Assembly: GCA_001724355.1 (NCBI GenBank)
Contig: MEEF01000006.1
Span: 62,001 to 126,000 of the forward strand
Origin: Mesorhizobium sp. SCN 65-20
GTDB lineage: Bacteria; Pseudomonadota; Alphaproteobacteria; Rhizobiales; Rhizobiaceae
DNA length: 64,000 nt
Direction of reading: 5' to 3'
The notes below the pieces were generated by a model. That model had not been told where the DNA came from. It worked only from the letters and a program-made list of their open reading frames with translations, and made no database searches. The translations under genes were made by a program, and so were the position numbers. Positions 5,162-26,194 of this stretch are shown here, piece by piece (positions within the stretch are counted from its first letter, which is position 1; the number at the start of each line of letters is the position of its first letter).

Positions 5162-5200
5162 GCTGGCACTCCAGTGAAGTCAGCTTGAAGCTGGGTTCCC

Positions 5201-9064: not shown

Positions 9065-9565
9065 ATGGTTCAGGGGCTGTTTCTGCTTTTTGCTGCAGCG
9101 TCCGTCATCGCGGCCCTGACCCTTGTTCTGGCGCGGAATCCGGTTCACAGCGCGTTGGCGCTGATGGCATGCTTCCTGCAAATCTCGGCCATCTTCGTCC
9201 TGCTCGAAGCACCGCTTCTCGCCGTCATCCAGATATTCGTCTATGTCGGCGCGATCATGGTCCTGTTCATCTTCGTGATCATGATGGTCGATGTGCGCGA
9301 AGCCGTGCTGCAGCGCTTCCTGCCGGGCAACAATCTTCCGGCGATGGTGCTGCTCGCCCTTCTCGGCACCGAGATGCTGGTCCTGGTGCTCTGGAGCGGG
9401 GCTTTCTCGGCGGCGACCCCTCCCGCAGGGGGCGAGGGCATCGGGCTCAGGCAACTCGCCACGAGCCTTTTCGCTGAATATCTGCTGCCCTTCGAGGTCG
9501 CCTCCGTCATTCTGCTCGCCGCTTTGGTGGGGGCCATCGTCCTGGCCCAGAAGGAGCAGCGCTGA
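9065..9565 (+). CDS. nuoJ: NADH-quinone oxidoreductase subunit J
   Basis: A 166-aa membrane subunit of complex I with five predicted helices. Family stretches are visible ([20 protein letters not shown] and [18 protein letters not shown]). I chose the ATG at 9065; a longer frame from 9044 adds seven residues without support. An AGAGGGG stretch about ten bases upstream is the likely ribosome binding site. nuoJ opens the plus-strand nuo operon, an unusual position, since it normally follows nuoI. The stop overlaps the nuoK start (TGATG). Confidence 0.95.
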
Positions 9566-9867
9566 TGGTGCCGCTCTGGTGGAGCATAGTGCTCGGGGTG
9601 GCACTGTTCGTCATCGGAGCGGGGGGCGTGCTCTTGAGGCGCAACATCCTCGTCGTGCTGATGTCGCTCGAACTGCTGCTCAATTCGGTCAACATCAATT
9701 TCATCGCCTTCGGGCACCACTTCGCAGACTCCCGCGGACAGGTCTTCGCGATCTTCGTCATCGCGATCACCGCAGCCGAAGTGGCCGTGGCCCTGGGCAT
9801 CCTGGTCGCCCTGGTGAGGAACAAATCCACGCTCAGGTCCGACGATGTGACATTGATGAAAGGATAG
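9565..9867 (+). CDS. nuoK: NADH-quinone oxidoreductase subunit K
   Basis: A 100-aa, three-helix complex I membrane subunit homologous to MrpC. The two conserved membrane glutamates are present ([10 protein letters not shown] and [12 protein letters not shown]); they form part of the proton path. The start overlaps nuoJ by one base. The stop is four bases before the TTG start of the next gene. Confidence 0.96.
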
Positions 9868-9871
9868 CGGC

Positions 9872-11305
9872 TTGGACCCGGTGACATCGATCCGGCCGCT
9901 GCTTGCCGTCGTCGTCGCGGGCCTTGCGGCTCTCGCCATCCTCCTCCTGAAGAATCGGGAACGTCTTCGCGACGCGGTCTCTCCCCTGGCGGCGGTCGTC
10001 ATGTTTGCCTTCGTCGCCTCCATGGCTCCCACCGTTCTGGCAGGCCGGACGATCGATCTGACGCTGTTCGAGATCTTGCCCGGAGTCGACTTCGCCTTCC
10101 GGGTCGATGCGCTCGGCATGGTCTTCGCCAGCGTCTCGTCGCTGCTCTGGATCGCTGCGTCGATCTATTCGATCGGCTACATGCGGGCCCTGAACGAGCA
10201 TGCCCAGACCCGGTTCTACGCCTGCTTCGCCACAAGCCTTGCGGCCGCCGTCGGCGGCGCCTTCTCCGCCAACCTGTTCACGCTGGTGATCTTCTACGAG
10301 GTGCTCAGCCTGGTCACCTATCCGCTCGTCTACCATCACGAGGACGAGGAGGCATGGGCCGGCAGCCGCAAGTATCTCGTCTACCTGATGGGGGCCTCGA
10401 AGAGCGTGCTTCTCGCCGCCCTGGCCCTGACCTACCAGATCGCCGGATCGCTCGACTTCGTGCCGGGCGGATTGCTGGCGGGCACCGGAGCCTCGGCTCC
10501 GCTGCTGACTGCGAAATCGGCCATCATGCCGATGCATGCCTGGTTGCCCGCCGCCATGGTGGCGCCAACCCCCGTCAGCGCGCTGCTGCATGCAGTGGCC
10601 GTGGTCAAGATGGGCGTATTCTGCGCGCTGCGGGTTATCTTCGACATCTTCGGTACGGGGCTGGTGGCGGCCCTCGGGCTCGGCTTGGCCACTGCCTATC
10701 TGGTCTCGTTCACGATCCTGACGGCGTCGATCTATGCGCTGACCCGCGACGACCTCAAGGCGCGGCTCGCCTATTCGACGGTCAGCCAACTCTCCTACAT
10801 CGTGCTCGGCGCGGTCCTGCTGTCGCCGGTGGCGATGGTGGGCGGGATCATCCACATCGCCGTGCACGCGTTTTCCAAGATCACGCTCTTCTTCTGTGCC
10901 GGGTCGATCTACTGCGCGTCAGGCAAGCGCAACATCAGCGACATGGCGGGCATAGGCCGGCGGCTGCCCTGGACGATGGGCGCGTTCTTCATAGGCTCGC
11001 TCAGCATGATCGGCGTGCCGCCGACCGGCGGCTTCGTCAGCAAGTGGTATCTCGCGCTGGGGTCGGTTGAAGGCGGAGAAATCGCATTCCTGATCGTGCT
11101 TCTTGCGAGCTCGGTCCTCAACGCCGCCTATTTCCTGCCGGTCAGCTATGTCGCCTTCTTCGGGAAGGAGGCGCCGGAGAGTACCCCAACGGTCCGGGAA
11201 ATTCCGATGATCGCGATCCCGCTCGTGGCGACCGCCGTGCTGTCGGTGGCAGTGGGCCTCTTCCCCGGATACTTCATCGCTCTCGCCGAAAGGGTGGCCG
11301 GATGA
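9872..11305 (+). CDS. MrpD-like antiporter subunit in complex I cluster (first extra pumping subunit)
   Basis: A 477-aa polytopic protein of the NuoL/M/N-MrpD family. All four key charged residues are present: Glu143 (FYEVLSLVTYPL), Lys215 (LLTAKSAIMPMHAWL), Lys246 (AVVKMGVFCALRV) and Lys391 (GGFVSKWYLALG). It should therefore pump protons. It has no NuoL-type C-terminal lateral helix. By sequence it is closer to stand-alone MrpD-like 'subunit D family' proteins than to NuoM. The start is a TTG at 9872 with AAAGGA upstream; no in-frame ATG exists before the first helix. It overlaps the next gene by four bases. Its place between nuoK and nuoM suggests it is built into the membrane arm. Confidence 0.9.
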   Translation: MDPVTSIRPLLAVVVAGLAALAILLLKNRERLRDAVSPLAAVVMFAFVASMAPTVLAGRTIDLTLFEILPGVDFAFRVDALGMVFASVSSLLWIAASIYSIGYMRALNEHAQTRFYACFATSLAAAVGGAFSANLFTLVIFYEVLSLVTYPLVYHHEDEEAWAGSRKYLVYLMGASKSVLLAALALTYQIAGSLDFVPGGLLAGTGASAPLLTAKSAIMPMHAWLPAAMVAPTPVSALLHAVAVVKMGVFCALRVIFDIFGTGLVAALGLGLATAYLVSFTILTASIYALTRDDLKARLAYSTVSQLSYIVLGAVLLSPVAMVGGIIHIAVHAFSKITLFFCAGSIYCASGKRNISDMAGIGRRLPWTMGAFFIGSLSMIGVPPTGGFVSKWYLALGSVEGGEIAFLIVLLASSVLNAAYFLPVSYVAFFGKEAPESTPTVREIPMIAIPLVATAVLSVAVGLFPGYFIALAERVAG

Positions 11306-11556
11306 TCAAGCGTGTCGTCGATTTCTTTGGCGACCAGGCATTTGCCGTCCGCCGCCGCCAGCTCTTCTACGTTTCACTCGCCATAATCGTCATCGCCGAC
11401 TTCCTGGTCTCCCGCGAGCACGCGGAATACCTCTGGGACCGAATACCGGGCTGGTCGGCCCTCTATGGTTTCGGCTCCTGCGTGCTGCTGATCTTCGTCT
11501 CCAAGTTCCTCGGCCACAAATGCGGACTGATGCGGCGCGAGGACTATTATGACTGA
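11302..11556 (+). CDS. 84-aa membrane protein between two MrpD-like subunits
   Basis: A small protein with two hydrophobic segments (about residues 20-36 and 50-68), a basic N-terminus, and a C-terminal tail ending in MRREDYYD. The central loop has WDRIPGWSALYGFGSCVLLI. From memory, proteins of this type accompany MrpD-like pairs in other bacteria, but I know no assigned function. It overlaps the upstream gene by four bases and the downstream one by eight, so it is surely co-translated. A linker or accessory subunit of the membrane arm is the natural guess. Confidence 0.85.
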   Translation: MIKRVVDFFGDQAFAVRRRQLFYVSLAIIVIADFLVSREHAEYLWDRIPGWSALYGFGSCVLLIFVSKFLGHKCGLMRREDYYD

Positions 11557-13309
11557 CTTCGTGCACCCCGCAGCGCTGTTCATTCTCGGGGCCGTGCCGA
11601 TCCCCTTCCTGCCAGGGAAGATTCGCAAGGCCTACCTGGTCGTGATTCCGGCGCTGGCGCTCCTCGCCGTGCTCTCCATCCAGCCGGGCAACTACGGCGC
11701 GATGCGGTTCATCGGGCAGGAAATCCTGATCGCCAGGGTCGACAGGCTGAGCATCGTCTTTGCCACCGTCTTCACGATCATGGCGCTTATCGGCACGGTC
11801 TATGCGCTGCACGTCACGCGTGCCGGCGAGCATGTCGCGGCGTTCGTCTATGTCGGCAGCGCGCTTGGTGTGGTCTTCGCCGGTGACTACCTGACCCTCT
11901 ACGTCTTCTGGGAGGCAATGGCGGTTGCCTCCGCCTACCTGGTCTTCGCGCAGGGTGGCGGGCCGGCGATCCGCGCCGGCTTTCGCTACCTGATGGTCCA
12001 CATCACCGGCGGCGTCGTCCTCCTCGGCGGCATCGTCCTGCAGGGCTTCGGTACCGGTTCGCTGCTTTTCGGTCCCTTCGAAGGGCAGATGGGGCCGGCC
12101 GCACTGCTGATCCTCGCGAGCTTCATGCTCAACGCCGCGGTGCCGCCGCTCAATGCCTGGCTGACCGATGCCTATCCGGAGGCGACGGTCACCGGGGCGG
12201 TGTTCATGAGCGCCTTCACCACCAAGACCGCGGTCTATGTGCTGGCGCGCGCATTCCCCGGAACCGAGTTGCTGGTCTGGTTCGGCACCGCGATGGCGCT
12301 CTACGGCGTCGTCTACGCCGTGCTCGAGAACGACTGTCGGCGGCTGCTCGCCTATCACATCGTCAGCCAGGTGGGTTACATGGTGGCGGGTATCGGGATC
12401 GGCACCGAAATGGCGGTCAACGGCGCCGCAAGCCATGCCTTCGCCCACATCCTCTACAAGGGGCTGCTGTTCATGGGCGCGGGCGCGGTGATCTACGTGA
12501 CGGGGCGGCGCAAGCTCACCGAACTCGGCGGGCTCTACAAATCGATGCCGATCACCGTTGCGCTCTACATGATCGGGGCCTTTGCGATCTCGGCATTCCC
12601 GTTCTTTTCGGGTTTTGTCACCAAGTCCATGGTGATTGCCGCGGCCGGGCAGGAACATCGTGCGCTGGTGGTGCTGGCACTGACGATGGCTTCGTCGGGG
12701 ACGTTCCTGCACACCGGCCTCAAGCTCCCCTACTACATGTTCTTCGGCACCGACCGTGGGCTTCCGGCGCACGAGCCTCCCCGCAACATGCTGATCGCCA
12801 TGGCGATGGCGGCAGTGCTCTGCATCGCCATTGGCGTCTATCCCCAGCCGCTCTACGCGCTGCTGCCCTATCCTGTGGACTTCGAGCCCTATACCGGCGT
12901 CCACATCACCGAGAGCCTGGGGCTGCTGATGTTCACGGCGCTCGGCTTCGTCCTGTTCCTGAGGGCGCTCGACCCCGAGGCCACGATCAGCATCGACACG
13001 GACTGGTTCTACCGCATGGGCGCGCGGCGCTTCATGTGGTTCGCCGAAAAGCCGCTGGCGTACTGGGAGCAGGCCGTAAGCAGCGTATCTGAAACCATCG
13101 CCCTGCCGCTGATGCATGGCCTGGCGCGCGTCGGGCTGCGCATCGACGTCAACGGCGTCGACGGCATAGTCAACGGCGTCGCCCGTTCGATCCTGCGTGG
13201 CGGCGGCGCGCTGCGGCGACTGCAGACCGGGGTGGTGAACCACTACGCCCTGGCCATGATCGCCGGCCTGATCGGCGCCACCGCCGTTTTCGCCGTCGTG
13301 TGGCAATAG
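11549..13309 (+). CDS. MrpD/NuoL-like antiporter subunit with NuoL-type C-terminal tail (second extra pumping subunit)
   Basis: A 586-aa polytopic antiporter-like protein. The core resembles proteins annotated as Na+/H+ antiporter subunit D (PPLNAWLTDAYPEATVTGAV). The last 100 residues resemble the NuoL lateral helix and final anchor helix (GVDGIVNGVARSILRGGG, LRRLQTGVVNHYALAMIAG). Glu122 (TM5), Lys226 (TM8) and Lys359 (TM12) are kept, but the TM7 lysine is replaced by Asn195 (MLNAAVPPLNAWL). It probably occupies the distal NuoL position, since no ordinary nuoL is in the window. Whether it pumps without the TM7 lysine is open. The start ATG at 11549 overlaps the small gene before it. Confidence 0.9.
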   Translation: MTDFVHPAALFILGAVPIPFLPGKIRKAYLVVIPALALLAVLSIQPGNYGAMRFIGQEILIARVDRLSIVFATVFTIMALIGTVYALHVTRAGEHVAAFVYVGSALGVVFAGDYLTLYVFWEAMAVASAYLVFAQGGGPAIRAGFRYLMVHITGGVVLLGGIVLQGFGTGSLLFGPFEGQMGPAALLILASFMLNAAVPPLNAWLTDAYPEATVTGAVFMSAFTTKTAVYVLARAFPGTELLVWFGTAMALYGVVYAVLENDCRRLLAYHIVSQVGYMVAGIGIGTEMAVNGAASHAFAHILYKGLLFMGAGAVIYVTGRRKLTELGGLYKSMPITVALYMIGAFAISAFPFFSGFVTKSMVIAAAGQEHRALVVLALTMASSGTFLHTGLKLPYYMFFGTDRGLPAHEPPRNMLIAMAMAAVLCIAIGVYPQPLYALLPYPVDFEPYTGVHITESLGLLMFTALGFVLFLRALDPEATISIDTDWFYRMGARRFMWFAEKPLAYWEQAVSSVSETIALPLMHGLARVGLRIDVNGVDGIVNGVARSILRGGGALRRLQTGVVNHYALAMIAGLIGATAVFAVVWQ

Positions 13310-13317
13310 GGGGACCG

Positions 13318-14787
13318 ATGGCGCTGCTCAGCCTCATCGTGTTCACGCCGGCGGTTGGGGCGTTGGTACTTGCGTTCATCCGCAACGAGCAGACGGTGCG
13401 GTGGACCGCGCTTGGCTTCACGGCGCTCGATTTCGTGCTGGCTGTGATGATGCTGGCCGGTTTCGATGCGACCACCCACGCAATGCAGTTCACCGAAGCG
13501 CGACCGTGGGTGCCCGCGCTCGGCATCACCTACGCGCTCGGCGTCGACGGGATCAGCGTGCTCTTCGTGTTCCTGACCGCGCTCTTGGGCTGGATCTGCG
13601 TGCTCGCCTCGTGGACCGCGATCGAGAGCAAGGTCAAGGAGTTCATGATCAGCCTGCTGGTCATGCAGTCGCTGATGCTGGGCGTGTTCTGCGCGCTCGA
13701 CCTGTTCCTGTTCTACGTCTTCTGGGAAGCCATGCTGATCCCGATGTACATCATCATCGGCGTCTGGGGCGGGGAGGGCAGGGTCTATGCGGCTTTCAAG
13801 TTCTTTCTCTACACGCTCGCCGGCAGCCTGCTGTTCCTGGTCGGCGTCATCGTGCTCTATTTGCAGGGCGGCCAGACCTTCGACATCATCGCGCTGAGCA
13901 ACCAGGACATCCCGTTCTCGGTGCAATCCTGGTTGTTCCTGGCGTTCCTGGTCGCCTTCGCCGTCAAGGTGCCGATGGTTCCGGTCCACACCTGGCTGCC
14001 CGACGCCCATGTGCAGGCGCCCACGGCGGGCAGCATCATCCTCGCAGCCGTCCTGCTGAAGATGGGCGCATACGGCTTCCTGCGGTTCTCCTTGCCGATG
14101 CTGCCGGAGGCCTCGGTGTACTACTCGACGGCGATGCTGATGCTGTCGGCGCTTGCGATCGTCTATGGCGGTCTGCTCGCTCTGGCGCAGGACGACCTGA
14201 AGAAGCTGGTCGCCTATTCCAGCATCAGCCACATGGGTTTCGTGACGCTGGGTATATTCACCTTGAACCTGCGCGGGCTCGAGGGCGGCATATTGCAGAT
14301 GTTCAATCACGGCGTGACGACCGGTGCGCTGTTCCTGTTCGTCGGCCTGATCTACGAGCGCACCCACACGCGCAGCATCGGCGCCTATGGCGGGCTGATG
14401 AAGCTGGCGCCGGTCTACACGTCTTTTCTCGCGTTGTTTGCCCTGTCGTCCATGGCATTGCCGGGCACCAACTCGTTCGTGGGCGAGTTGCTCGTCCTGT
14501 CGGGCGGATTTGCCGCCAATCCCGCCATCACAGCCATAGCCGTGCTCGGCGCCCTTCTGGGGGCGGCCTACCTGCTCGGCATGTACCGGAAGGTCGCGCT
14601 GGGTCCGGTCCGGTTGCCTGGAGGGGCGAAGGTTCGCGATGTGAACGCCCGTGAGCTGATCGCGATCCTGCCGCTGGCCGTGTTGGTGTTCTGGGTTGGG
14701 CTCTATCCGAAGCCCTTTCTTGGTATCATCGACGCCTCGGTGAAGCATCTGCTCGTGCGCGTGCATGGAGAGGGGAGCGGCCAATGA
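13318..14787 (+). CDS. nuoM: NADH-quinone oxidoreductase subunit M
   Basis: A 489-aa canonical NuoM. It has the TM5 glutamate (FYVFWEAMLIPMYIIIG), both central lysines (AFAVKVPMVPVHTWLPDAHV and AVLLKMGAYGFLRF) and the TM12 glutamate (NSFVGELLVLSG) that sets NuoM apart from NuoL. I chose the ATG at 13318 because AGGGGGA lies just upstream; a few in-frame codons before it are not needed. The 3' end overlaps nuoN by four bases. Confidence 0.97.
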   Translation: MALLSLIVFTPAVGALVLAFIRNEQTVRWTALGFTALDFVLAVMMLAGFDATTHAMQFTEARPWVPALGITYALGVDGISVLFVFLTALLGWICVLASWTAIESKVKEFMISLLVMQSLMLGVFCALDLFLFYVFWEAMLIPMYIIIGVWGGEGRVYAAFKFFLYTLAGSLLFLVGVIVLYLQGGQTFDIIALSNQDIPFSVQSWLFLAFLVAFAVKVPMVPVHTWLPDAHVQAPTAGSIILAAVLLKMGAYGFLRFSLPMLPEASVYYSTAMLMLSALAIVYGGLLALAQDDLKKLVAYSSISHMGFVTLGIFTLNLRGLEGGILQMFNHGVTTGALFLFVGLIYERTHTRSIGAYGGLMKLAPVYTSFLALFALSSMALPGTNSFVGELLVLSGGFAANPAITAIAVLGALLGAAYLLGMYRKVALGPVRLPGGAKVRDVNARELIAILPLAVLVFWVGLYPKPFLGIIDASVKHLLVRVHGEGSGQ

Positions 14788-16223
14788 CCGGCTCGGTGCT
14801 CCTTCAATGGGTGCTTGCGAGCCTGCCTGAGATCGTGGTGGTCGTTGGGGCCTGTGCCCTGCTGATCCTCGGGCAGTTGCTCCCGAAGGGACAGGGGTAC
14901 TTCCTGGTCTGGGGCTCCATCGCGGTCGTGTTGGCCGCGGCCCTGGCGACTCTTCTGCTCGCCGGCCAGACGCAGCCGGCCTACATGGACATGTTCATCG
15001 CCGACCGCTTCGCAGTCTTCTTCAAGGCGGTGTTCTACCTTGCCACGGTACTTACGTTCCTGCTGTCGCGGCGATATGCCGAGATCGAGGGGATAGAGAG
15101 CAGCGAGTATTATGTGCTCCTGCTCTTCGCGTTGTCCGGCATGATGATCATGGCTTCGGCGGTCGACCTGTTGTCGATCTATGTCGGCCTCGAACTGATG
15201 GCGCTCTGCACCTATGTGCTGACCGGCTTCCTGCGCAGCGAGCGGCGATCGAACGAAGCGGCGCTGAAATATGTGGTGCTGGGAGGGGCTGCGACCGGGG
15301 TTTTCCTCTACGGCGTCTCGCTGGTCTATGGGGTCACCGGAACGACGCGCCTCGACGGCCTGGCCGCCGCCGTTGCCACCAGCGCCGGCGATCCCGGATT
15401 GCTGCTGGCGGTGGTCTTCATCGTTGCAGGGCTGGCGTTCAAGGTCGGCGCGGTGCCGTTCCATATGTGGGTGCCCGACGTCTACGAGGGCGCGCCGACG
15501 ACGATCACGGCCTTCATGTCGGTGGCGCCCAAGGCGGCCGGCTTCGCGGTGATCCTGCGCGTGTTCCTCAATCCGCTCGTCACGGCCTCGAATGCCTGGA
15601 TCATCATTGCGGTCATCGCGGTGGTGACGATGGCGCTTGGGAGCTTCGTGGCGCTGGTCCAGGACAACATCAAGCGGCTGCTCGCCTATTCCAGCATCGC
15701 CCATGCGGGCTTTGCCATGTTCGGCGTCGTGGCAGGCGGCGCAGATGGCATCGCCAGCGTCATGCTCTACCTGCTCATCTACGCGTTCATGAACCTGGGT
15801 ATCTTCGCCACGGTCATCTTGATGCGGAACGGCGATTTTTCCGGCGAGGCCATCGACGACTACAGGGGGCTCGCCAAGTCGCATCCCGGGCTCGCGCTCC
15901 TGATGCTGCTCTACCTGTTCTCGCTCGCCGGCATCCCCCCGACGGCGGGGTTCTTCGCCAAGTTCTACGTGCTGGTGGCACTCGTCGAGCGCGGTTTCGT
16001 GGGGCTGGCGGTGATTGCGGTGCTGCTGAGCGCGGTCGCCGCCTATTTCTACATCCGCATCGTCATGGTCATCTACATGCGCGAACCCGGCGAGCAGGCC
16101 AATCCGGCACTTACGCCCTCCGTCCGCGCCACGCTCGCCCTCACTGCGGCCGGCACGATCGGTATTGGACTGTTCCCGGCGTGGTTCCTGAAGCTTGCGC
16201 AAGACTCCGTGTTCGGCGGCTGA
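14784..16223 (+). CDS. nuoN: NADH-quinone oxidoreductase subunit N
   Basis: A 479-aa NuoN with about 14 helices. Key residues are present: the TM5 glutamate (YVGLELMALCTYVLTG), lysines in IVAGLAFKVGAVPFHMWVPD and APKAAGFAVILRV, and the TM12 lysine in PPTAGFFAKFYVLV. The ATG overlaps the nuoM stop (ATGA). A gap of about 150 bases follows before nuoA, the largest gap within the plus-strand nuo genes, so a second promoter there is possible. Confidence 0.97.
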   Translation: MTGSVLLQWVLASLPEIVVVVGACALLILGQLLPKGQGYFLVWGSIAVVLAAALATLLLAGQTQPAYMDMFIADRFAVFFKAVFYLATVLTFLLSRRYAEIEGIESSEYYVLLLFALSGMMIMASAVDLLSIYVGLELMALCTYVLTGFLRSERRSNEAALKYVVLGGAATGVFLYGVSLVYGVTGTTRLDGLAAAVATSAGDPGLLLAVVFIVAGLAFKVGAVPFHMWVPDVYEGAPTTITAFMSVAPKAAGFAVILRVFLNPLVTASNAWIIIAVIAVVTMALGSFVALVQDNIKRLLAYSSIAHAGFAMFGVVAGGADGIASVMLYLLIYAFMNLGIFATVILMRNGDFSGEAIDDYRGLAKSHPGLALLMLLYLFSLAGIPPTAGFFAKFYVLVALVERGFVGLAVIAVLLSAVAAYFYIRIVMVIYMREPGEQANPALTPSVRATLALTAAGTIGIGLFPAWFLKLAQDSVFGG

Positions 16224-16372
16224 CCGATTGAGTTTGCAATGCATATCCCGACCGCATATCCTCGAAGATGGACGAAAGGAAAGCCCAAGTCGCTTCCCTA
16301 GGCCAGCCCGACCGGCCCTAAGGGGGCAGCCGTATCACGAGGTTGCTTCGGCGCCGACTTGGACAACGCGCC

Positions 16373-16738
16373 ATGGCTGGAATGGAATTCCTGCCGGTAC
16401 TTTTCATGACCGCCGGAATTGTCCTGGTGGCAGTGGCGACGATGTTTGTTTCCTCCCTGCTGCGCCCGGCCAATCCTTATCCGGCAAAGAACATGCCCTA
16501 TGAATGCGGCATGGATCCCGCCGGCGAGGCCGCCGGCGGCAACTTCCGGGTCCAGTTCTTCGTGCTTGCCATCCTGCTGGTGGTCTTCGACGTCGAGACG
16601 ATGTTCCTCTTCCCATGGGCGGTCGTGCTGAAGGAGATCGGCCTGGTCGGCTACATCGAGATGTTCGTCTTCATGCTGCTGCTGATCGTCGGGTTCGCCT
16701 ATGCCTGGATGAAGGGAGCCCTGGAATGGGAGAAGTAG
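16373..16738 (+). CDS. nuoA: NADH-quinone oxidoreductase subunit A
   Basis: A 121-aa membrane subunit with three helices and the conserved [16 protein letters not shown] loop containing the cysteine of subunit A, plus [15 protein letters not shown]. The start is uncertain among TTG 16343, ATG 16373 and ATG 16382; none has a strong ribosome binding site, and I chose the ATG at 16373. The 3' end overlaps nuoB by 13 bases. Confidence 0.94.
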
Positions 16739-17762: not shown

Positions 17763-17790
17763 GGGAGTTGCTGCACGACGGTGCCTTGAA

Positions 17791-19005
17791 ATGACCGAAG
17801 TCACGGAACTCAGCAGGCCGGAAGGCGAGGCCTCCGCGATCAAGGAGGTGCTCCTCAACCTCGGCCCGCAGCATCCCAGTACGCATGGCGTGTTGCGCCT
17901 CGTGCTGGAGCTGGAGGGCGAGTATGTCGCGCGCGTCGATCCGCATATCGGCTACCTGCATCGCGGCACCGAAAAGCTGGCGGAGAGCTTCACCTACACG
18001 CAGATCTTTCCGCTGACCGACCGCCTCGATTACCTCTGCCCACCTTCGAACAACCTCGCCTTCGCGCTTGCGGTGGAGAAGCTATTGGGCATCGAGGCGC
18101 CGATCCGTGCGCAGTATATCCGCGTGTTGATGGCCGAGCTGGCGCGGATTTCCGGCCATCTGCTGATCACCGGTGCGCTGCCCATGGATCTGGGGGCCAT
18201 GACCGCGCTGCTCTACGCCATGCGCGAACGCGAAATGATCATGGACCTCCTGGAGATGGTCGCGGGGGCCCGGATGCACACCTCGTTCTGCCGGGTGGGT
18301 GGCGTGCGCGAAGACCTGCCCGCTGAGTTCTTCCCGAAGATCAGGGAATTCTGCGCCATCTTCCCGAACCGGATCCGAGACTATGAGCGGCTTATCGAAG
18401 ACAATCGGGTGTTCCTGAAGCGCACGCGGGGCGTCGGCGTGATCTCGGCCGAGGACGGCATCGATCTCGGCCTGAGCGGCCCGAACCTGCGTGCCTCGGG
18501 CGTCGACTGGGACATCCGCCGCGACGAGCCGTACGAGATTTACGACCGCCTGGAGTTCAACGTCGTCACGCGTGACGAAGGCGATTGCTACGCGCGCTGG
18601 CAGTGCCGGGTCGAAGAGATGCGCGAGAGCATGCGGATCATCGAGCAGTGTCTCGACCAGATGCCCGAGGGGCCGTTCCAGATCGATATGCCGACAGTCG
18701 CCTTTCCGGTGAACAAGGACAGGGTGCACTGTTCGATGGAAGCGCTGATCCAGCACTTCGACCTCGCTGCCTATGGCTTCAAGGTGCCAAAGGGCGAGGC
18801 GTATTCGGCGATCGAGGCGCCCAAGGGCGAACTCGGCTTCTACATCATCAGCGATGGGTCGGAAAAACCGTTCCGGATGAAGGTGAGAGCACCGTCCTTC
18901 GTCAACCTCCAGGGGCTCTTCGGGGTCAGCAACGCGCGCTACCTGGCGGACATGATCGCGGTGCTGGGCAGCCTCGACCCGGTGATGGCCGAAGTGGACA
19001 AGTAG
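17791..19005 (+). CDS. nuoD: NADH-quinone oxidoreductase subunit D
   Basis: A 404-aa subunit D (49-kDa subunit) that forms the quinone-binding site with NuoB. Visible family stretches are NLGPQHPSTHGVLRL, IGYLHRGTEKL, GARMHTSFCRVGGV, and near the end KVRAPSFVNLQGL. I chose the ATG at 17791; it lacks a close ribosome binding site (the nearest GGGAG is over 20 bases upstream), so coupling to nuoC 28 bases before is likely. Confidence 0.97.
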   Translation: MTEVTELSRPEGEASAIKEVLLNLGPQHPSTHGVLRLVLELEGEYVARVDPHIGYLHRGTEKLAESFTYTQIFPLTDRLDYLCPPSNNLAFALAVEKLLGIEAPIRAQYIRVLMAELARISGHLLITGALPMDLGAMTALLYAMREREMIMDLLEMVAGARMHTSFCRVGGVREDLPAEFFPKIREFCAIFPNRIRDYERLIEDNRVFLKRTRGVGVISAEDGIDLGLSGPNLRASGVDWDIRRDEPYEIYDRLEFNVVTRDEGDCYARWQCRVEEMRESMRIIEQCLDQMPEGPFQIDMPTVAFPVNKDRVHCSMEALIQHFDLAAYGFKVPKGEAYSAIEAPKGELGFYIISDGSEKPFRMKVRAPSFVNLQGLFGVSNARYLADMIAVLGSLDPVMAEVDK

Positions 19006-19021
19006 CAGGGAGACGCCCGCG

Positions 19022-19519
19022 ATGGGCATGCGCGAGAAGATCGAAGCAGCGGCAGGGCGATATCCCGACCGGCGGTCGGCGATCATGCCCGCTTTGCTCA
19101 TCGCGCAGAAGGAGCACGGGCATCTGCCCGGCCCGGTGCTGGAGGAGGTGGCCGACGTGCTCGGCGTCGAGCGGATCTGGGTCTACGAGCTCGCGACCTT
19201 CTATACGCTCTTCCACACCGAGCCGGTGGGGATGTTCCATCTGCAACTGTGCGACAACGTCTCGTGCATGCTGCGAGGGGCGGAGGCACTGCTGGCCCAC
19301 ATGGAAGCGGTGCTGGGGATCGGGAAGGGCGGCACGACCTCCGACGGGCTGTTCACCCTGTCGACGGTCGAATGCCTCGGTGCCTGCGAGATGGCACCCG
19401 TGATGCAGGTCGGTGACGACTACCATGGCGACCTCGACGTGGCCCGCATCGACACCCTGCTGGACCACCTGCGCCGTGCAGGGTCCGGGGTACCTCTAGC
19501 CCCTCGGGCGGGAGCCTAG
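19022..19519 (+). CDS. nuoE: NADH-quinone oxidoreductase subunit E (2Fe-2S)
   Basis: A 165-aa thioredoxin-fold subunit of the NADH dehydrogenase module that binds 2Fe-2S cluster N1a. The ligands are Cys77 and Cys82 (LQLCDNVSCML) and Cys118 and Cys122 (VECLGACEMAPVMQ). The preceding CAGGGAG gives a fair ribosome binding site. The C-terminal 15 residues are variable. Confidence 0.97.
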   Translation: MGMREKIEAAAGRYPDRRSAIMPALLIAQKEHGHLPGPVLEEVADVLGVERIWVYELATFYTLFHTEPVGMFHLQLCDNVSCMLRGAEALLAHMEAVLGIGKGGTTSDGLFTLSTVECLGACEMAPVMQVGDDYHGDLDVARIDTLLDHLRRAGSGVPLAPRAGA

Positions 19520-19523
19520 TGCC

Positions 19524-20789
19524 GTGTCGGAACGGGTGCTTCTCAGGAACGTGGACGTGCCGGACGGCCATCTGATCTCGGCCTATGAGGCCGGTGGCGG
19601 CTACCGGGCGCTGGCGAAGGCACTGCGTGAGCATACCCCCGACGAGATCATCGAACTGGTCAAGAACTCCAACCTGCGCGGTCGCGGCGGCGCCGGGTTC
19701 CCGACGGGCATGAAATGGAGCTTCGTACCCAAGCAGGCAAACAAGCCCAAATATCTGTGCTGCAACGCCGACGAGGGCGAGCCGGGCACCTTCAAGGACC
19801 GCATCATCATGGAGCGCGATCCGCACCAGTTGATCGAGGGGATGGCGATCAGCGCCTACGCGATCGGTGCGGAAACCGCCTATGTCTATGTTCGCGGGGA
19901 ATACGTGTTGGCGATCCGGCGGCTGGAGCAGGCGATCGCGGAGGCACATGCCAAAGGGTATCTGGGAACGCGCATCCTGGGGGCGGATTTCAACTTCACC
20001 GTCCACGTCCATTGCGGCGCCGGCGCCTATATATGCGGCGAAGAGACGGCCATGCTCGACTCGCTCGAAGGCAAGCGGGCGCAGCCGCGCCTCAAGCCGC
20101 CGTTCCCCGCGGTCGCGGGGCTCTATGCCAGCCCGACCGTAATCAACAACGTCGAGACCCTGGTCTGCGTGCCGCATATCGTGAGCCGCGGAGCCGACTG
20201 GTTCCGTGGCATCGGCCCGGACAAGAGCCCCGGCCCGAAGCTCTATTGCGTGAGCGGGCAGGTGCGCAGGCCGGGCCTCTACGAGCTGCCGATGGGCATA
20301 CCGTTGCGCGAACTGGTCGACGAGCATGCCGGAGGGGCGTTGCAGGGGCGCAAGGTCAAGGCAGTGATCCCCGGCGGGGTCTCGGCGTCGGTCATCCCCG
20401 AGAGCGGACTGGACGTCCGGATGGATTTCGATTCCCTGGCCGCAGTCGGCTCGATGCTGGGCTCGGCCGGGGTGATCGTGATCGACGACACGACCTGCAT
20501 GGTGAAGGTCGCAACCCGCATCGTCGAGTTCTTCCACCATGAATCCTGCGGCAAGTGCACCCCCTGCCGCGAAGGGCTTAACTGGGTCTTCAAGGTGCTG
20601 CGCCGGATCGAGGCGGGGCAGGGCGCGCCCGACGACATCGAACAGTTGCAGGGGCTCTGCAAGGGCATCTTCGGCAACACCTTCTGCGCGCTGGGCGATG
20701 GTGCGGCGATGGGCTTGCGGGCGGCACTGGCGCATTTCGAGCACGAGTTCACCGCCCATATCGAGGAGCACAGGTGCCCCTTCCATTGA
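19524..20789 (+). CDS. nuoF: NADH-quinone oxidoreductase subunit F (FMN, 4Fe-4S)
   Basis: A 421-aa NADH-binding subunit carrying FMN and 4Fe-4S cluster N3. It shows the glycine-rich FMN/NADH motif GRGGAGFPTGMKWSFVP and CNADEGEPGTFKDR, and the cluster ligands Cys342, Cys345 and Cys348 (ESCGKCTPCREG) with the fourth in GNTFCALGDG. The start is GTG at 19524, with GGGAG upstream. The presence of E, F and G means this complex can take electrons directly from NADH. Confidence 0.97.
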   Translation: MSERVLLRNVDVPDGHLISAYEAGGGYRALAKALREHTPDEIIELVKNSNLRGRGGAGFPTGMKWSFVPKQANKPKYLCCNADEGEPGTFKDRIIMERDPHQLIEGMAISAYAIGAETAYVYVRGEYVLAIRRLEQAIAEAHAKGYLGTRILGADFNFTVHVHCGAGAYICGEETAMLDSLEGKRAQPRLKPPFPAVAGLYASPTVINNVETLVCVPHIVSRGADWFRGIGPDKSPGPKLYCVSGQVRRPGLYELPMGIPLRELVDEHAGGALQGRKVKAVIPGGVSASVIPESGLDVRMDFDSLAAVGSMLGSAGVIVIDDTTCMVKVATRIVEFFHHESCGKCTPCREGLNWVFKVLRRIEAGQGAPDDIEQLQGLCKGIFGNTFCALGDGAAMGLRAALAHFEHEFTAHIEEHRCPFH

Positions 20790-20807
20790 GAAGGCCGCGA
20801 GGAAGCG

Positions 20808-23372
20808 ATGGTACGCGTCACGATCGACGATCATGAACTCGAAGTGGAGGCAGGCTCCACGATCCTGCAAGCCGCCCAATCGCTCGGCATCGAGATCCCG
20901 ACCTTCTGCTACATGAAGCGCCTGCCGCCGCTTGCCTCCTGCCGCATGTGCCTGGTGGAGATCGCCGGGCTGAGGCGGCTTCAGCCCGCCTGTGCGACTG
21001 CCGTGGCAGATGGCATGGCGGTGCGGACGAACACGCCGCTGATCGAGGAGACGCGCTCCTCGATGCTCGACATGCTGCTTGCCAACCATCCCCTCGATTG
21101 CCCGGTCTGCGACAAGGGCGGCGAGTGCGAGCTTCAGGACATGGTGATGGCCTACGGGCCGCGCCGAAGCGGGTTCCGGGATCCCAAGCGCGTGTTCCAC
21201 TCGCACGACATCCGCCTCAGCCCGGTCATCATCATGAACGTCAATCGCTGCATCCAGTGCCAGCGTTGCGTGCGCATGTGCGAGGAGGTGGTAGGCGCGG
21301 TAGCCCTCGGCACCGTCGAGAAGGGCATGGACACTGCCGTCACGGGCTTCGAGGGCAGTCTCGCCAGTTGCGACCAGTGCGGCAATTGCGTCGAGGTCTG
21401 CCCCGTCGGCGCGCTGATGAGCTTCCCCTACCGCTACAAGGCGCGGCCCTGGGACCTGGTGGAAACGGACACGGTCTGCCCGCATTGCGGCACCGGCTGC
21501 CAGCTCACCGTGGGTTCCCGCAAGGGCGAGTTCATGCGGGTCCGCTCCAAGGAGGAGCACGGGGTCAATCGCGAAACGCTCTGCGTGCGCGGCCGCTTCG
21601 GCCTCGACTTCGTGGCGAGCCGGGATCGCATCAGGTCGCCGATGATCCGCCGCGACGGCGCGCTGGCGCCGATCTCCTGGGACGAGGCGGGTGCCTATCT
21701 TCGCCGGCGCCTGTCGGAGGTCGGAGAGAAGAGTGCTGGCGGGCTGGTTTCGCCCCGCCTGCCCAACGAGGTGATCTACCAGTTCCAGAAGCTGATGCGC
21801 ACGGTGTTCCGCACCAACAGCGTCGATTGTTCGTCGCGCTGGGTGATGCCTTTCGACATGCTTGGTCCGTTGGCCCGCTTCTACACCCGCGCCCCGCTGC
21901 AGGAGGTGCTGGGCAGTGACCGCGTGCTCGTCGTCGGCGGCAACGTGACGGAGGAAAACCCGGTCACCGAATATCTGCTGCGGGACAGCGTGCGGCGGCG
22001 TCGGGTCCAACTCCTCATACTTTCGGCGCGGCCGTCGCGGCTGGACGCCGATGCCCGCGCGGTGCTGCGCGTGCGGCCGGGCGCCGAGACGGTAGCCCTT
22101 GCCGCTGTGCTGGCCGAACTCACGGCCGCAGCGGGACAAGTACCCGGTGACCACACGTCGAATGGGGGCTCGGCTGCATCTGCCGACGACGGACGGCAGC
22201 GCCTTGCCGCAGCACTTCTCGACGGCAAGAGAGCCACGGTTTTCGTCAGCGTCGACCTGCTGAGATCGCCGCAATCGCGCGCAACGCTGCAACAGCTGGA
22301 CAGCCTCCTGCAGCTCCTTCAAGCTCTGGGCAAGAACCCGCAGATGCAGTTCCTTTTCGACCGCGCCAACCAGCTGGGCGCGTGGGACATGGGAGCCCTG
22401 CCGATGGCTTTTCCCGGCTGGCGGGACGTTGCCGACAGTACGGCGCGCGCGAGCCTGGAGCAGGCCTGGAGGGCTGAAGTTTCCGCAGTTCCGGGAGCGG
22501 ATTTCGGCGCCATGCTCGATCTCTGCGAGCAGGGCCGGATGGGCGCGCTCTACATCGTGGGAAGCGATCCGCTGGCGTCGTTTCCCGACCGCGGCCTCGT
22601 GCAGCGGGGGCTCGGTGCCGCCGATCTTCTGATCGTGCAGGATGCCTATCTCACGGAGACTGCTGCCCTTGCCGATGTCGTCCTGCCTGCCTCTGGCTAC
22701 GGCGAAGAGACCGGGACGTTCACCAGCAATGAGGGCCGCGTCCAGAAAATCTCCAAGTTCCGCGAGCCTCCTTTCGAGGCACGTAACAACCTGACGATTT
22801 TCGATTTCGTCGCCACCCTTCGCGACAAGGTCCTGCAGCCATCGTCGCCGGACGAGGTCTTCGACGAGATCGCCCGGCTCGTACCCGCCTACCAGGGATT
22901 GACGCGGCAGGAACTCGGCCCGGATGGCGCTTTCACCAAGGCAGCGCCGGTGTCGCCCGCCGCAGGCGGCGCGGTCTCGCCGCCGCCCCAAGACGTCGGC
23001 AACGGGCTCGTTCTGGTCACCGGCAACGGCCTGTTCCATAACGGCTACCTTTCCGAGCGTTCTGAGATACTGAACACGGTCGCCGACGAGCCGTATGTGG
23101 AAATGAGTTCGCAGGATGCCAGCCGGCTCGGCTTGATCGACGGCAGTCCGGTGGTGGTGCGCTCGGCCAGGAGCGAACTGACGGCCAAGCTCAAGGTCAA
23201 CCGGCATTTCCCGGAGGGCCTGGTCTTCGTGCCGGAGAACTACATCGCGTTGCGCCTCAACGCGCTGATGAGGCGGGGCGAATATCCGTGCCCGGTCGAG
23301 ATAGAGCCGGCGCACACCAGTCTAACCGCGGCCGCCGCGGCCGGGACACGCCCCTTGGAGTTGGATATTTGA
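20808..23372 (+). CDS. nuoG: NADH-quinone oxidoreductase subunit G
   Basis: An 854-aa subunit with an N-terminal 2Fe-2S ferredoxin domain (CYMKRLPPLASCRMCLVEI), the His/Cys cluster N5 site (HPLDCPVCDKGGECELQDM) and the N4 site (CIQCQRCVRMCEEVV, CDQCGNCVEVCPVG). It also has the extra N7 site Cys224, Cys227, Cys231 and Cys259 (CPHCGTGCQLTVG, LCVRGRFG). A degenerate molybdopterin-oxidoreductase domain follows. The N7 cysteines and the length are like E. coli NuoG and unlike the shorter NuoG of the usual rhizobial, mitochondrion-like complex I. It has a GAGGA ribosome binding site. Confidence 0.96.
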   Translation: MVRVTIDDHELEVEAGSTILQAAQSLGIEIPTFCYMKRLPPLASCRMCLVEIAGLRRLQPACATAVADGMAVRTNTPLIEETRSSMLDMLLANHPLDCPVCDKGGECELQDMVMAYGPRRSGFRDPKRVFHSHDIRLSPVIIMNVNRCIQCQRCVRMCEEVVGAVALGTVEKGMDTAVTGFEGSLASCDQCGNCVEVCPVGALMSFPYRYKARPWDLVETDTVCPHCGTGCQLTVGSRKGEFMRVRSKEEHGVNRETLCVRGRFGLDFVASRDRIRSPMIRRDGALAPISWDEAGAYLRRRLSEVGEKSAGGLVSPRLPNEVIYQFQKLMRTVFRTNSVDCSSRWVMPFDMLGPLARFYTRAPLQEVLGSDRVLVVGGNVTEENPVTEYLLRDSVRRRRVQLLILSARPSRLDADARAVLRVRPGAETVALAAVLAELTAAAGQVPGDHTSNGGSAASADDGRQRLAAALLDGKRATVFVSVDLLRSPQSRATLQQLDSLLQLLQALGKNPQMQFLFDRANQLGAWDMGALPMAFPGWRDVADSTARASLEQAWRAEVSAVPGADFGAMLDLCEQGRMGALYIVGSDPLASFPDRGLVQRGLGAADLLIVQDAYLTETAALADVVLPASGYGEETGTFTSNEGRVQKISKFREPPFEARNNLTIFDFVATLRDKVLQPSSPDEVFDEIARLVPAYQGLTRQELGPDGAFTKAAPVSPAAGGAVSPPPQDVGNGLVLVTGNGLFHNGYLSERSEILNTVADEPYVEMSSQDASRLGLIDGSPVVVRSARSELTAKLKVNRHFPEGLVFVPENYIALRLNALMRRGEYPCPVEIEPAHTSLTAAAAAGTRPLELDI

Positions 23373-23587
23373 AGGGGAGTTGTCCCTTGAGCGAGGGGGC
23401 GAGTCGCCACAGATACTTGAGATGCAAAAGCGCAAGCGGAAGGGCCTGGTGCCCAGGCGGCGACAACAGCGCAGGGCCACCAGCGGGATGGTGGCGACAG
23501 GCAACGAGCGCCTTGCCGCACAACTGCGCAGGATCCTGGGCACCCACTACATGAACAGGTTCCAGTGCCGAAGACAGGGAGGAAAGT

Positions 23588-23941
23588 ATGGCTGAAGGTT
23601 TGGCCCAGAAGGTCTGCACGCCTTGCCAAGGCGGGGTTCCACCGCTGACACCGGAGGAAGCCGGAAGCTACCTGTCCCAGACGCCAGGCTGGGAACTGAA
23701 GGACGACGGCCGCTGGCTGCGCCGCGAGTTCAAGTTCGCGAATTTCCGGGGCGCGCAGGATTTCATCGACAAGGTGGGGCGATTGGCCGAAGAACAAGGC
23801 CACCATCCAGACCTCTGTTTCGGCTGGGGCTACGCCACCATCTCGCTGCAGACCCACAAGATCGGAGGCCTGCACGAGAACGACTTCATCATGGCGGGCA
23901 AGATTGGTGAGTTGGCGGACCTGGGTGCGCGGGACGCGTGA
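23588..23941 (+). CDS. phhB: 4a-hydroxytetrahydrobiopterin dehydratase (pterin carbinolamine dehydratase)
   Basis: A 117-aa protein of the PCD/DCoH family, which dehydrates 4a-hydroxytetrahydropterin to quinonoid dihydropterin. The active-site histidines are His72, His73 and His90 in EEQGHHPDLCFGWGYATISL and QTHKIGGLHENDF. A strong GGGAGGAAAG ribosome binding site precedes the ATG. It sits between the two strands of the nuo cluster with no aromatic hydroxylase nearby, so its role here could be molybdopterin- or pterin-related recycling; that is inference. Confidence 0.93.
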   Translation: MAEGLAQKVCTPCQGGVPPLTPEEAGSYLSQTPGWELKDDGRWLRREFKFANFRGAQDFIDKVGRLAEEQGHHPDLCFGWGYATISLQTHKIGGLHENDFIMAGKIGELADLGARDA

Positions 23942-23983
23942 TCGCGCGACCTCCAGATACCGTCGTCAAACCGGATCTGTCGC

Positions 23984-24088
23984 ATGGCCGATCTTGTCCA
24001 GCCGAGACTCGTCAACGAGCCATTCTCCGATCCCGTCCTGTATCTCGACTTCCGGTTCCGACGCCGTGCTTTGCTGTTCGACCTGGCG
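23984..24088 (+). pseudogene. 5' remnant of an MBL-fold metallo-hydrolase (ribonuclease Z-like) gene
   Basis: The first 34 or so codons from the ATG at 23984 read as [18 protein letters not shown] followed by [16 protein letters not shown]. This matches, from memory, the N-terminal start of a widespread ribonuclease Z-like MBL-fold family, where it would normally go on to a GD and then an HxHxDH metal site. Here the similarity stops near 24086 and the frame soon runs antisense into the CBS-domain gene. No HxHxDH follows. I read it as a gene truncated at a rearrangement point. Confidence 0.6.
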
Positions 24089-24098
24089 CGGACGCGAG

Positions 24099-24539
24099 TC
24101 AATGATAGCCGGTGCCGGCGATATAGTCGTGCAGCACCTGCTCGTTGCGCAGGGATTCGTCGAGCCGGTGCTTGACCACGTCGCCGATGCTGACCACTCC
24201 GGCGATGGCCTTGCCTTCGAGTACCAGCACATGACGCGTCCGCTGCTTGGTCATGATCGCCATGACGAGCGGCAGCCCGTCGCGGGCCGAGCAGGTGGCG
24301 ACGTTGCGGTTCATGATGTCGGCGACAGCCATCAGCGGTGCGGCGGCTCCATGTTCGGCCACCGCGTTGCAGCAGTCCCGCTCGGAGAGGCTGCCGAGAT
24401 ATTCTCCTGCAACCCGGTTGACGACGACGAAGCCGATGTTGCTGTCGCGGAACAGCCGTAGCACCTCCACGACTGTCGTTTCAGGGGCGACCGAGACGAC
24501 CCCGGGCGCTTTCGTCTTCAGGATTTCGCCTACAAGCAT
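24099..24539 (-). CDS. CBS-domain pair protein
   Basis: A 146-aa protein made of two CBS domains (about residues 8-60 and 73-130), with stretches such as [18 protein letters not shown] and [23 protein letters not shown] pairs bind adenine nucleotides and usually act as energy or redox sensors. The ATG at 24539 has a GGAGG ribosome binding site. It lies 38 bases downstream of nuoI on the same strand, so nuoH-nuoI-CBS form one short leftward operon. A role in sensing nucleotide state near complex I is only suggested by position. Confidence 0.88.
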
Positions 24540-24577
24540 GTGCACCTCCCGCCCGCCAACCGGCGGATCGGACGCCG

Positions 24578-25144
24578 TCACCTCCGCCGGATGTTCCGCC
24601 ACCAGTTGTAGCCTTGCGTGCCCGTGGCCTCGACGCGCACATCCTGTCCGGCCTGGAACTGCGCGGCGACCACGGCGCCCCCGCTGACCGCCTTGCCCGG
24701 CTTGGCAAGCAGGTCGTCGCGCCCCACGACAAGGTCGTCGGAAGAGAAGCTCGAGAATTCGTATTGCTGGCCGAGCGCGATCGCATCCGCCGGGCAGGCA
24801 TCCTCGCACAGCCCGCAGAACAGGCAGCGGCTCATGTCGATCTCGAATTTCGCAGGCCGCCGGTTGCCCTTGTCATCCTCGTAGGGGACGACCTCGATGC
24901 AATAGCAGGGGCAGATCCGCGCGCAGAGTTCGCAGGCCACGCATTTGATCTCGCCCTCGGCGTCGCGCTTCAGGAAATGGTGTCCGCGATAGCGCTGGTA
25001 GGGGAGCCATTTCTCCTTGTCCGGATATTGCATGGTCACGGTCCGGGAGAACATGTAGCTGAACGTCAGCGCCAACGCGCTGCCGAGATCGGCGAAGTAA
25101 GCCCAGCCGATCCACTTTCCACCACTGTCCAACACACGCGACAT
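24578..25144 (-). CDS. nuoI: NADH-quinone oxidoreductase subunit I (two 4Fe-4S clusters)
   Basis: A 188-aa ferredoxin-like subunit carrying clusters N6a and N6b. Ligands are Cys68, Cys71, Cys74 and Cys78 (CVACELCARICPCYCIEV) and Cys107, Cys110, Cys113 and Cys117 (CLFCGLCEDACPADAI). The C-terminal 40 residues after the second cluster are longer than the core family. It is on the minus strand, opposite to nuoA-G, 30 bases after nuoH. Together with nuoH it supplies the two subunits missing from the plus-strand set. Confidence 0.96.
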   Translation of the reverse strand: MSRVLDSGGKWIGWAYFADLGSALALTFSYMFSRTVTMQYPDKEKWLPYQRYRGHHFLKRDAEGEIKCVACELCARICPCYCIEVVPYEDDKGNRRPAKFEIDMSRCLFCGLCEDACPADAIALGQQYEFSSFSSDDLVVGRDDLLAKPGKAVSGGAVVAAQFQAGQDVRVEATGTQGYNWWRNIRRR

Positions 25145-25174
25145 CGCCGTCTCGCCATGGAACAGGCCATGGGC

Positions 25175-26161
25175 CTATAGGAAGGCAATACCCGTCACGA
25201 TTATGTTCGCCAGAGAGAGTGGAAGCAAGACTTTCCACCCGATCGCCATCAACTGGTCGTAGCGGTAGCGCGGGAACGTGAAGCGGAACCAGATGAACAG
25301 GTAGATGAAGAACGCTACCTTGATCAGGAACCACAGGATCGGCGGCAGCGGGATCAGGACGCCGTTCCAGCCGCCGAAGAACAGCACCACCGAGAGCACC
25401 GAGATCAGCAGCATGATGGCGTATTCGCTGACCATGAAGAACGCGAAGCGGATGCCGCTGTATTCGGTGTGGAAGCCGGCACCCAGGTCGCCTTCCGCTT
25501 CCGAAAGGTCGAAGGGGATGCGCTGGGCCTCGGCGAGGCCCGCGATGAAGAACACGAAGAAGCCGATCGGCTGGTAGACGATGAACCAGACATCGGATTG
25601 CGCGCGCACGATGTCGAGCAGGCTCATGGATTGCGCCAGCATCACGACGCCGATCACCGCGAACCCCATCGGGATCTCGTAGCTGATCATCTGGGCGCAG
25701 GTCCTGAGGCTGCCGAGCACGGCGTATTTGCTGTTTGCGGCCCATCCGCCGAAGATGACGCCGTAGACCTCTATGCCGATGACCGCCAGGATGAAGAGCA
25801 GCGCCACGTTCATGTTCGAGGCATAGAGCGTGATCTCGTTGCCGAGCACGGAGACGCTTTCCCCGAAGGGGATTGCGACGAACACCACGAAGGGCGGTGC
25901 AAGGGCGAGGACGGGCGCCAGCTTGAACAGCAGCCGGTCGGCGTCGGCCGGAATGTGATCCTCTTTCGTCAGCAGCTTGATGCCGTCCGCCACCGGCTGC
26001 AGCAATCCGTGCCAGCCCACCCGCATCGGGCCCATCCGCTGCTGCATGTGCCCGGCGACCTTGCGTTCGAGCCAGGTCAGCGGCAACGGCAACAAAAGCA
26101 GCGCCGCGATCAGGATCGCGACCTTGAGGGCGATGAGGCCAAGGGCGACGAGAAGCTCCAT
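25175..26161 (-). CDS. nuoH: NADH-quinone oxidoreductase subunit H
   Basis: A 328-aa membrane subunit with about eight helices that connects the quinone site to the pumps. Family stretches include TWLERKVAGHMQQRMGP, GIKLLTKEDHIPADAD, YEIPMGFAVIGV and EAQRIPFDLSEAEGDLGAG. I chose the ATG at 26161 (MELLVALG); a TTG at 26200 would add 13 residues lacking hydrophobic or conserved character. The ribosome binding site is weak. It is first in the inverted nuoH-nuoI-CBS operon. Confidence 0.96.
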   Translation of the reverse strand: MELLVALGLIALKVAILIAALLLLPLPLTWLERKVAGHMQQRMGPMRVGWHGLLQPVADGIKLLTKEDHIPADADRLLFKLAPVLALAPPFVVFVAIPFGESVSVLGNEITLYASNMNVALLFILAVIGIEVYGVIFGGWAANSKYAVLGSLRTCAQMISYEIPMGFAVIGVVMLAQSMSLLDIVRAQSDVWFIVYQPIGFFVFFIAGLAEAQRIPFDLSEAEGDLGAGFHTEYSGIRFAFFMVSEYAIMLLISVLSVVLFFGGWNGVLIPLPPILWFLIKVAFFIYLFIWFRFTFPRYRYDQLMAIGWKVLLPLSLANIIVTGIAFL

Positions 26162-26194
26162 TCGGCGGCACCATGAGGCGACGGCATGCGCCGT

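Follow-up and report, generated by a model that had tools for sequence, protein, structure and literature searches.

Green complex I of Mesorhizobium sp. SCN 65-20: two antiporter-like proteins in the place of NuoL, one of them with asparagine for the TM7 lysine

The 64,000-nucleotide stretch analysed here (the window; contig MEEF01000006.1, positions 62,001-126,000) belongs to the draft genome of Mesorhizobium sp. SCN 65-20 and contains a complex I gene cluster at positions 9044-26200, in which the interval between nuoK and nuoM is filled by genes for two antiporter-like proteins, named here D1 (477 amino acids, 9872-11305) and D2 (586 amino acids, 11549-13309), and for an 84-residue membrane protein, s84 (11302-11556), all on the plus strand. 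By its gene content and order the cluster is the 'green complex I' already described in rhizobia, which is defined by two MrpD-like proteins in place of a single NuoL (PMC9040806). We slightly favour the reading that in this complex the trio takes the place of nuoL, that D1 would be interposed between NuoM and D2 and be the last subunit of the arm to pump, and that D2 would be a non-pumping clamp at the end of the membrane arm. Three observations go beyond the literature searched: D2 has asparagine where D1 has the lysine of transmembrane helix 7 (TM7), the NuoL-like tail of D2 is shifted, and the trio also occurs in Mrp operons.

The three proteins are the open reading frames (ORFs) named in the original prediction, which had been made from the sequence alone. 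The ORF table and scans against Pfam and NCBIfam confirmed NuoA-K, NuoM and NuoN, and bore out the statement that the cluster contains no ordinary NuoL. The cut-off of the NuoL model TIGR01974 (407.5 bits) was reached by none of the cluster's four antiporter-like proteins, the scores being 182.5 bits for D1, 140.8 for D2 and 112.4 for NuoN; for NuoM this model falls outside the best 25, which end at 139.9 bits. Only one of the four passed the NuoM cut-off (TIGR01972), and there is no second NuoM. D1, s84 and D2 stand in the place of NuoL, as had been proposed for the pair. The system as a whole has already been described under the name green complex I (PMC9040806).

The description of the pair as 'MrpD-derived' is too firm. 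Both proteins do exceed the cut-offs of NCBIfam models named 'antiporter subunit D' (NF006236, 775 bits, for D1; NF009310, 781 bits, for D2), but in an antiporter tree of 75 of the 212 sequences they group with NuoL and MrpA, apart from MrpD, NuoM and NuoN (Shimodaira-Hasegawa-like approximate likelihood ratio test, SH-aLRT, 92, with long branches). In the same tree D1, D2 and the MrpD-like partner from Mrp operons each form one clade (100, 100 and 99), and the MrpD of the window genome itself is a long branch. The absence of a GKSAQ-type TM7 sequence of NuoL, also predicted, holds for the literal string only, since D1 bears a TM7-8 block of NuoL type (AKSAIMPMHAWLP...APTPVSALLHA).

After cut or broken copies had been dropped, the D2 set comprised 158 proteins, 52 from complex I loci, 103 from Mrp loci and three undecided. 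All 52 complex I copies have asparagine at the TM7 lysine position (codon 195 in the window, 12131-12133), as do 119 of 120 close relatives among the matches listed, the window included; in the remaining one the search motif was not found. At the Mrp loci the same position is occupied by lysine in 57 copies, asparagine in 45 and serine in one. The pair of TM5 glutamate and TM7 lysine, reported to be essential for catalysis in NuoM (PMC9802314), is thus incomplete in D2, the glutamate being retained and the lysine replaced. D1 keeps the TM7 lysine in all 135 relatives and in the window copy (136/136), in which the ion pair is present although 10 residues of TM7 are gone, and the NuoM and NuoN proteins of both the window and Sinorhizobium meliloti retain it as well. 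In an AlphaFold 2 (AF2) model of D2, with a mean predicted local distance difference test (pLDDT) score of 83.9 and a tail partly under 50, TM7 is broken at the asparagine (helices 183-195 and 203-211); a Foldseek search with this model confirmed the fold only, with MrpA, NdhF and NuoL as the best chains. D2 is probably, though not certainly, inactive as a pump, and the predicted change in the proton/electron ratio is doubtful, given that the lysine is missing from every D2 of the complex I loci.

According to the reading of PMC9040806 for extra-pump complexes, all four antiporter-like subunits would pump and five protons would be translocated per NADH. We regard this as unlikely for the present cluster. 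It agrees with the four PF00361 subunits encoded together, with the extended lateral helix (HL) of D2, and with the retention by D2 of the TM5 glutamate (158/158), the TM8 lysine (158/158) and the TM12 lysine (157/158); against it stands the substitution of one half of the pair just described.

The tail of D2 also bears on its position; D1, by contrast, has no lateral helix. Its HL region in the window (approximately residues 485-563, 13001-13237) ends in a NuoL-like anchor before TM16. A hidden Markov model (HMM) built from 16 alphaproteobacterial NuoL tails matched 48 of the 52 complex I D2 proteins, and none of the 103 from Mrp loci, the three undecided ones or 260 shuffled tails. In 45 of the 48 the start of the match lies 21-22 residues further outward than in NuoL (18, 23 and 46 in the others, the last being locus L168), and for 21 of the 48 this start falls on one of the first 12 positions of the NuoL helix. 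From the tryptophan at the start of HL to TM16 there are 88-91 residues in 49 of 51 complex I copies (one over-long ORF having been dropped), 94 in one and 115 in L168, versus a median of 69 in 15 NuoL rows, at least one of which is mismeasured, with a negative distance. The distance from this tryptophan to the QTG motif is 76 in all five complex I D2 proteins of the alphaproteobacterial set versus 55-56 in 16 NuoL. D2 seems, from these alignments, to have in its tail both the helix and the anchor of NuoL and, in addition, one piece beside its own core (approximately 13007-13072 in the window), and this piece sits where an interposed D1 would need bridging. The enlarged membrane arm of the original prediction is likely, with D2 carrying a helix of NuoL type set 21-22 residues outward. 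A pitch near 20 residues is made plausible by work on E. coli, in which P552 is placed between L and M, and the sites tested include P564, in contact with M, and P572 (PMC3274701). On AF2 models, HL spans about residues 485-561 in D2 and 581-636 in the genome's own NuoL, both with low confidence. The D2 of a Nitrospiria genome (L168, 9001-10803) has 26 more HL residues, as published for five-pump complexes, and its contig ends before a possible second NuoM.

The alternative arrangement, in which D2 occupies the NuoL place beside NuoM, D1 is an additional distal cap and the longer lateral helix has some other cause, is rather improbable. D2 does adjoin NuoM in the gene order D1-s84-D2-M-N, and the median distance between the centres of TM15 and TM16 is only 8-10 above that of NuoL; but the NuoL helix aligns to D2 only after the 21-22 extra core-side residues in 45 of the 48 matches, and from phylum to phylum the HL length hardly varies. 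A version of this arrangement with an HL of ordinary length in D2, drawn from whole-protein HMM spans, was dropped when the HL-only comparison reversed it, the TM15-TM16 distance being less clear.

A location of D1 between NuoM and D2 is likely in view of the outward shift of the HL match and of the asparagine that D2 has for the TM7 lysine. In the reading that we favour, D1, s84 and D2 would be stable parts of the complex, the arm would have the linear order N-M-D1-D2, and TM16 of D2 would dock at the usual NuoN/K/J end. The asparagine would disable the Glu-Lys switch of D2, so that about four protons would be moved per NADH, as in ordinary complex I, and the presence of four antiporter-like subunits would not have to imply five protons if D2 is a non-pumping clamp. 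The traverse helix is described as structural in PMC9802314, with the stoichiometry staying at four. As for s84, of the 144 loci in which D1 is full, at least 124 have a small ORF between D1 and D2, which has a YYD-like end in at least 88 of the 124 (R-EDYYD at the C-terminus of the window copy); both counts are lower bounds because the script overlooked known cases such as S. meliloti. Three copies scanned had no Pfam match, and the window copy had no match in NCBIfam. Perhaps s84 acts as a wedge or an assembly factor for D1 and D2, although this is a guess.

Several points weigh against a clamp-like D2 beyond a working D1. With its retained TM5, TM8 and TM12 residues D2 might still carry ions, and the K229A substitution of NuoL had little effect in a Bacillus complementation assay, that is, outside complex I (PMC4938563). 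Four of the 52 complex I D2 tails are unmatched by the NuoL-tail HMM. Measured at its end, the match is shifted less evenly than at its start, by 18-26 residues in 47 of 48 tails (20-21 in most) and by 48 in one, and the median TM15-TM16 centre distance of 111-113 in complex I D2 versus 103 in NuoL is a smaller excess, because NuoL is longer ahead of the HL tryptophan; the corresponding medians are 89 for alphaproteobacterial Mrp D2 and 66 for three MrpA. In the AF2 model of D2 the lateral helix lies largely under pLDDT 60 and much of it under 50. Outside the alphaproteobacteria the tails of Mrp D2 are variable, with 59-115 residues from the tryptophan to TM16, so the length rule is valid only inside complex I; an attempt to extend it to Mrp operons failed outside the alpha and gamma types. 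D2 proteins from Mrp loci of Nitrospirota, Desulfobacterota and archaea (e.g. L211, L214 and L223) have long charged tails from TM15 to the last helix, which resemble neither NuoL nor the alphaproteobacterial Mrp D2. Finally, the window's particular copy of D1 may be impaired or misassembled, since 10 residues of its TM7 are gone.

The usual length of D1 is 487 amino acids (109 of 120 proteins among the matches listed), and full-length D1 was found in close relatives. The window copy alone lacks 10 residues just before the TM7 lysine (1 of 136 aligned proteins and 1 of the 120 listed relatives). The gap, in the region 10450-10540, is in frame, and the short form was seen in one contig only; it is possibly a real mutation, or a strain or assembly variant. 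Decay of the green complex in this organism would account for a gap unique to this copy. We consider decay improbable, as every reading frame of the cluster is open and the assembly (3.68 Mb in 136 contigs) is an 81% complete draft with the short form in a single contig, which makes an assembly or strain variant possible.

The trio is not confined to complex I. D2 exceeded its family cut-off in 87 of the 385 alphaproteobacterial genomes drawn, and among the 80 of these 87 loci that were examined three are complex I clusters and the rest are Mrp operons, except for a few on contigs that were too short for a decision. A scan of named genomes added 80 loci in Desulfobacterota, Nitrospirota, Nitrospinota, Verrucomicrobia, Planctomycetota, Chloroflexi, beta- and gammaproteobacteria and archaea; these are the best 80 of at least 583 relatives and therefore do not amount to a census. 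Pfam naming of one trio-bearing Mrp operon (L051) gave MrpE, F, G, MbhD/E-like, B, C, D-like, D1 and D2, and a Brocadiaceae genome (L211) yielded the same gene set, D1 and D2 included. In the stretches read, 102 of the 103 Mrp loci had no ORF of at least 560 amino acids best matching MrpA or NuoL, L211 being the exception; six of the 103 (L061, L073, L087, L092, L093 and L113) are short stretches in which no Mrp gene was seen and are labelled Mrp by default. At L211 (2187-15876) the trio-type Mrp operon is directly followed by an ordinary MrpA-type operon. A third setting occurs in Ca. Manganitrophus GAC4 (L221, 7344-10527), where D1 and D2, the latter in two frames, lie amid genes for c-type cytochromes, which fits the oxidase TO_2 of PMC9040806.

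The D1-s84-D2 trio is thus common to complex I loci and MrpA-less Mrp operons of several phyla. In a tree of 155 D2 proteins, in which the lysine-type D2 form one clade (100), the machine context has to change four times, starred branches forcing three or more of these changes, with the six default Mrp labels included. For the D2 proteins of alphaproteobacteria alone one change suffices; a single switch between the machines was nevertheless dropped as an explanation, given the four changes of the larger tree. Tentatively, and with slightly less than even confidence, the trio may be a split form of NuoL, portable enough to have switched several times between redox-driven complex I and Mrp antiporters, with one half retaining the ion channel and the other being a lysine-less clamp with a lateral helix rebuilt for each machine. 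If this is true, the arm would grow by one subunit for every 21-26 HL residues or so without a gain in protons, and the number of antiporter-like subunits would be separate from the pumping stoichiometry.

Whether the trio can do without NuoL was addressed through the host genomes. Nine matches to PF00361 were counted in the window genome; this cluster accounts for four of them, an upstream Mrp operon for two and contig C91 for three (NuoL, NuoM and NuoN). A separate normal nuoL, which by the original prediction would undo the extra-subunit idea if it served the cluster, does exist, but it sits in the ordinary nuo cluster of C91 with that cluster's own NuoM and NuoN. NuoL passed the cut-off in each of the 30 alphaproteobacterial genomes that were tested, the four with the green cluster among them. 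In addition, 24 of the 47 named complex I loci were taken, and 14 of the 24 trio-bearing genomes have a NuoL over the family cut-off and 10 have none. The ten, which include the named strains Desulfoluna spongiiphila AA1 and Salidesulfovibrio brasiliensis JCM 12178, are all shotgun assemblies and possibly incomplete, and eight have titles naming uncultured organisms or metagenome-assembled genomes; one, a Nitrospiria genome, gives a NuoL match of 350 bits, short of the cut-off, and the long frame concerned could encode an MrpA. An ordinary NuoL ORF was present in none of the 50 complex I loci read. The trio is evidently able to replace NuoL, as these NuoL-negative genomes indicate. That D1, s84 and D2 are a separate, co-transcribed Mrp-like antiporter while the complex relies on the NuoL of the ordinary operon is very improbable: their 'cation/H+ antiporter subunit D' matches in NCBIfam, the presence of the trio in Mrp operons, and the ordinary NuoL and adjacent Mrp operon of this genome are in its favour, but the S. 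meliloti counterpart is annotated without any other Mrp gene in the cluster, the NuoL-type tail of D2 occurs in complex I loci only (48/52 against 0/103), and ten of the 24 trio genomes have no NuoL over the cut-off.

Whether each antiporter-like subunit carries one proton is an old open question in complex I. Green complex I is a natural experiment in this respect, having a fourth antiporter-like subunit and yet, in all 52 copies, one of the four without the central lysine. Its H+/2e- ratio would bear directly on whether arm length sets stoichiometry, and the NuoL-negative genomes, draft assemblies as they are, suggest hosts without a confounding ordinary complex.

The remaining genes of the cluster are arranged as follows. 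From nuoJ through nuoG they are on the plus strand: nuoJ (9044-9565, PF00499), nuoK (9565-9867, PF00420; NCBIfam NF004320 over cut-off), nuoM after the trio (13300-14787, TIGR01972, 638.6 bits), nuoN (14784-16223, TIGR01770, 510.9 bits), nuoA (16343-16738, PF00507), nuoB (16744-17229, start approximate, PF01058), nuoC (17226-17762, PF00329), nuoD (17584-19005, the true start lying within the ORF, PF00346), nuoE (19022-19519, PF01257), nuoF (19524-20789, PF01512 and PF10589) and nuoG (20808-23372, TIGR01973 over cut-off). On the minus strand are nuoI (24578-25144, TIGR01971 over cut-off) and nuoH (25175-26200, PF00146; NF004741 over cut-off). After nuoG, inside the cluster, lies a gene for pterin-4a-carbinolamine dehydratase (23588-23941, PF01329), and beside nuoI one for a CBS-domain protein (24099-24809, minus strand, PF00571), a counterpart of which is annotated at the same place on S. 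meliloti pSymA. Directly upstream of the cluster is an Mrp operon with an ordinary-looking MrpA of 973 amino acids (window 1-5200; L013).

D2 shares 93% identity with proteins of Aminobacter and Mesorhizobium, and 114 plasmid records contain a relative, 99 of them at 80-90% identity. The genes and their order (J K D1 s84 D2 M N A-G, followed by I and H on the other strand) are shared with S. meliloti pSymA, and this identity ruled out a new type of complex I. About 70 alphaproteobacteria are reported to have the green operon beside a standard one, and the green operon to be upregulated in symbiosis (PMC7415380). The missing lysine of D2, the 21-22-residue shift and the sharing of the trio with Mrp operons had no mention in the literature searched, although the two most relevant papers were outside its coverage and novelty is unproven.

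The cluster is most similar to the nuo2 green complex I of S. meliloti, with which it shares the genes, their order, the two MrpD-like proteins for NuoL and the presence of a second, ordinary nuo operon; compared with its green relatives, the window cluster has a D1 shorter by 10 residues and the pterin dehydratase gene. The five-pump Complex_I_3 of Ca. Manganitrophaceae, as described in PMC9040806, likewise has the D1/D2 pair for NuoL, but also a second NuoM and 26 further HL residues in D2, whereas the window has a single NuoM and lacks the insert. The 2M complex I of Nitrospira, as cited in the same paper, shares a fourth antiporter-like subunit and a lengthened lateral helix, with an insert similar in length to the 26 residues; there, however, NuoL is retained and the additional subunit is a NuoM. 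Among Mrp antiporters, those with irregular gene sets (Group 3, PMC5703873) also have extra MrpD-like genes, and Mrp operons without MrpA bear the D1-s84-D2 trio; they differ from the cluster in having no redox module and another D2 tail. With ordinary complex I the cluster has in common NuoA-K, NuoM, NuoN and the NuoL-like lateral-helix tail, carried here by D2; it differs in that the features of NuoL are split, the channel residues being found in D1 and the lateral helix in D2, which is without the TM7 lysine.

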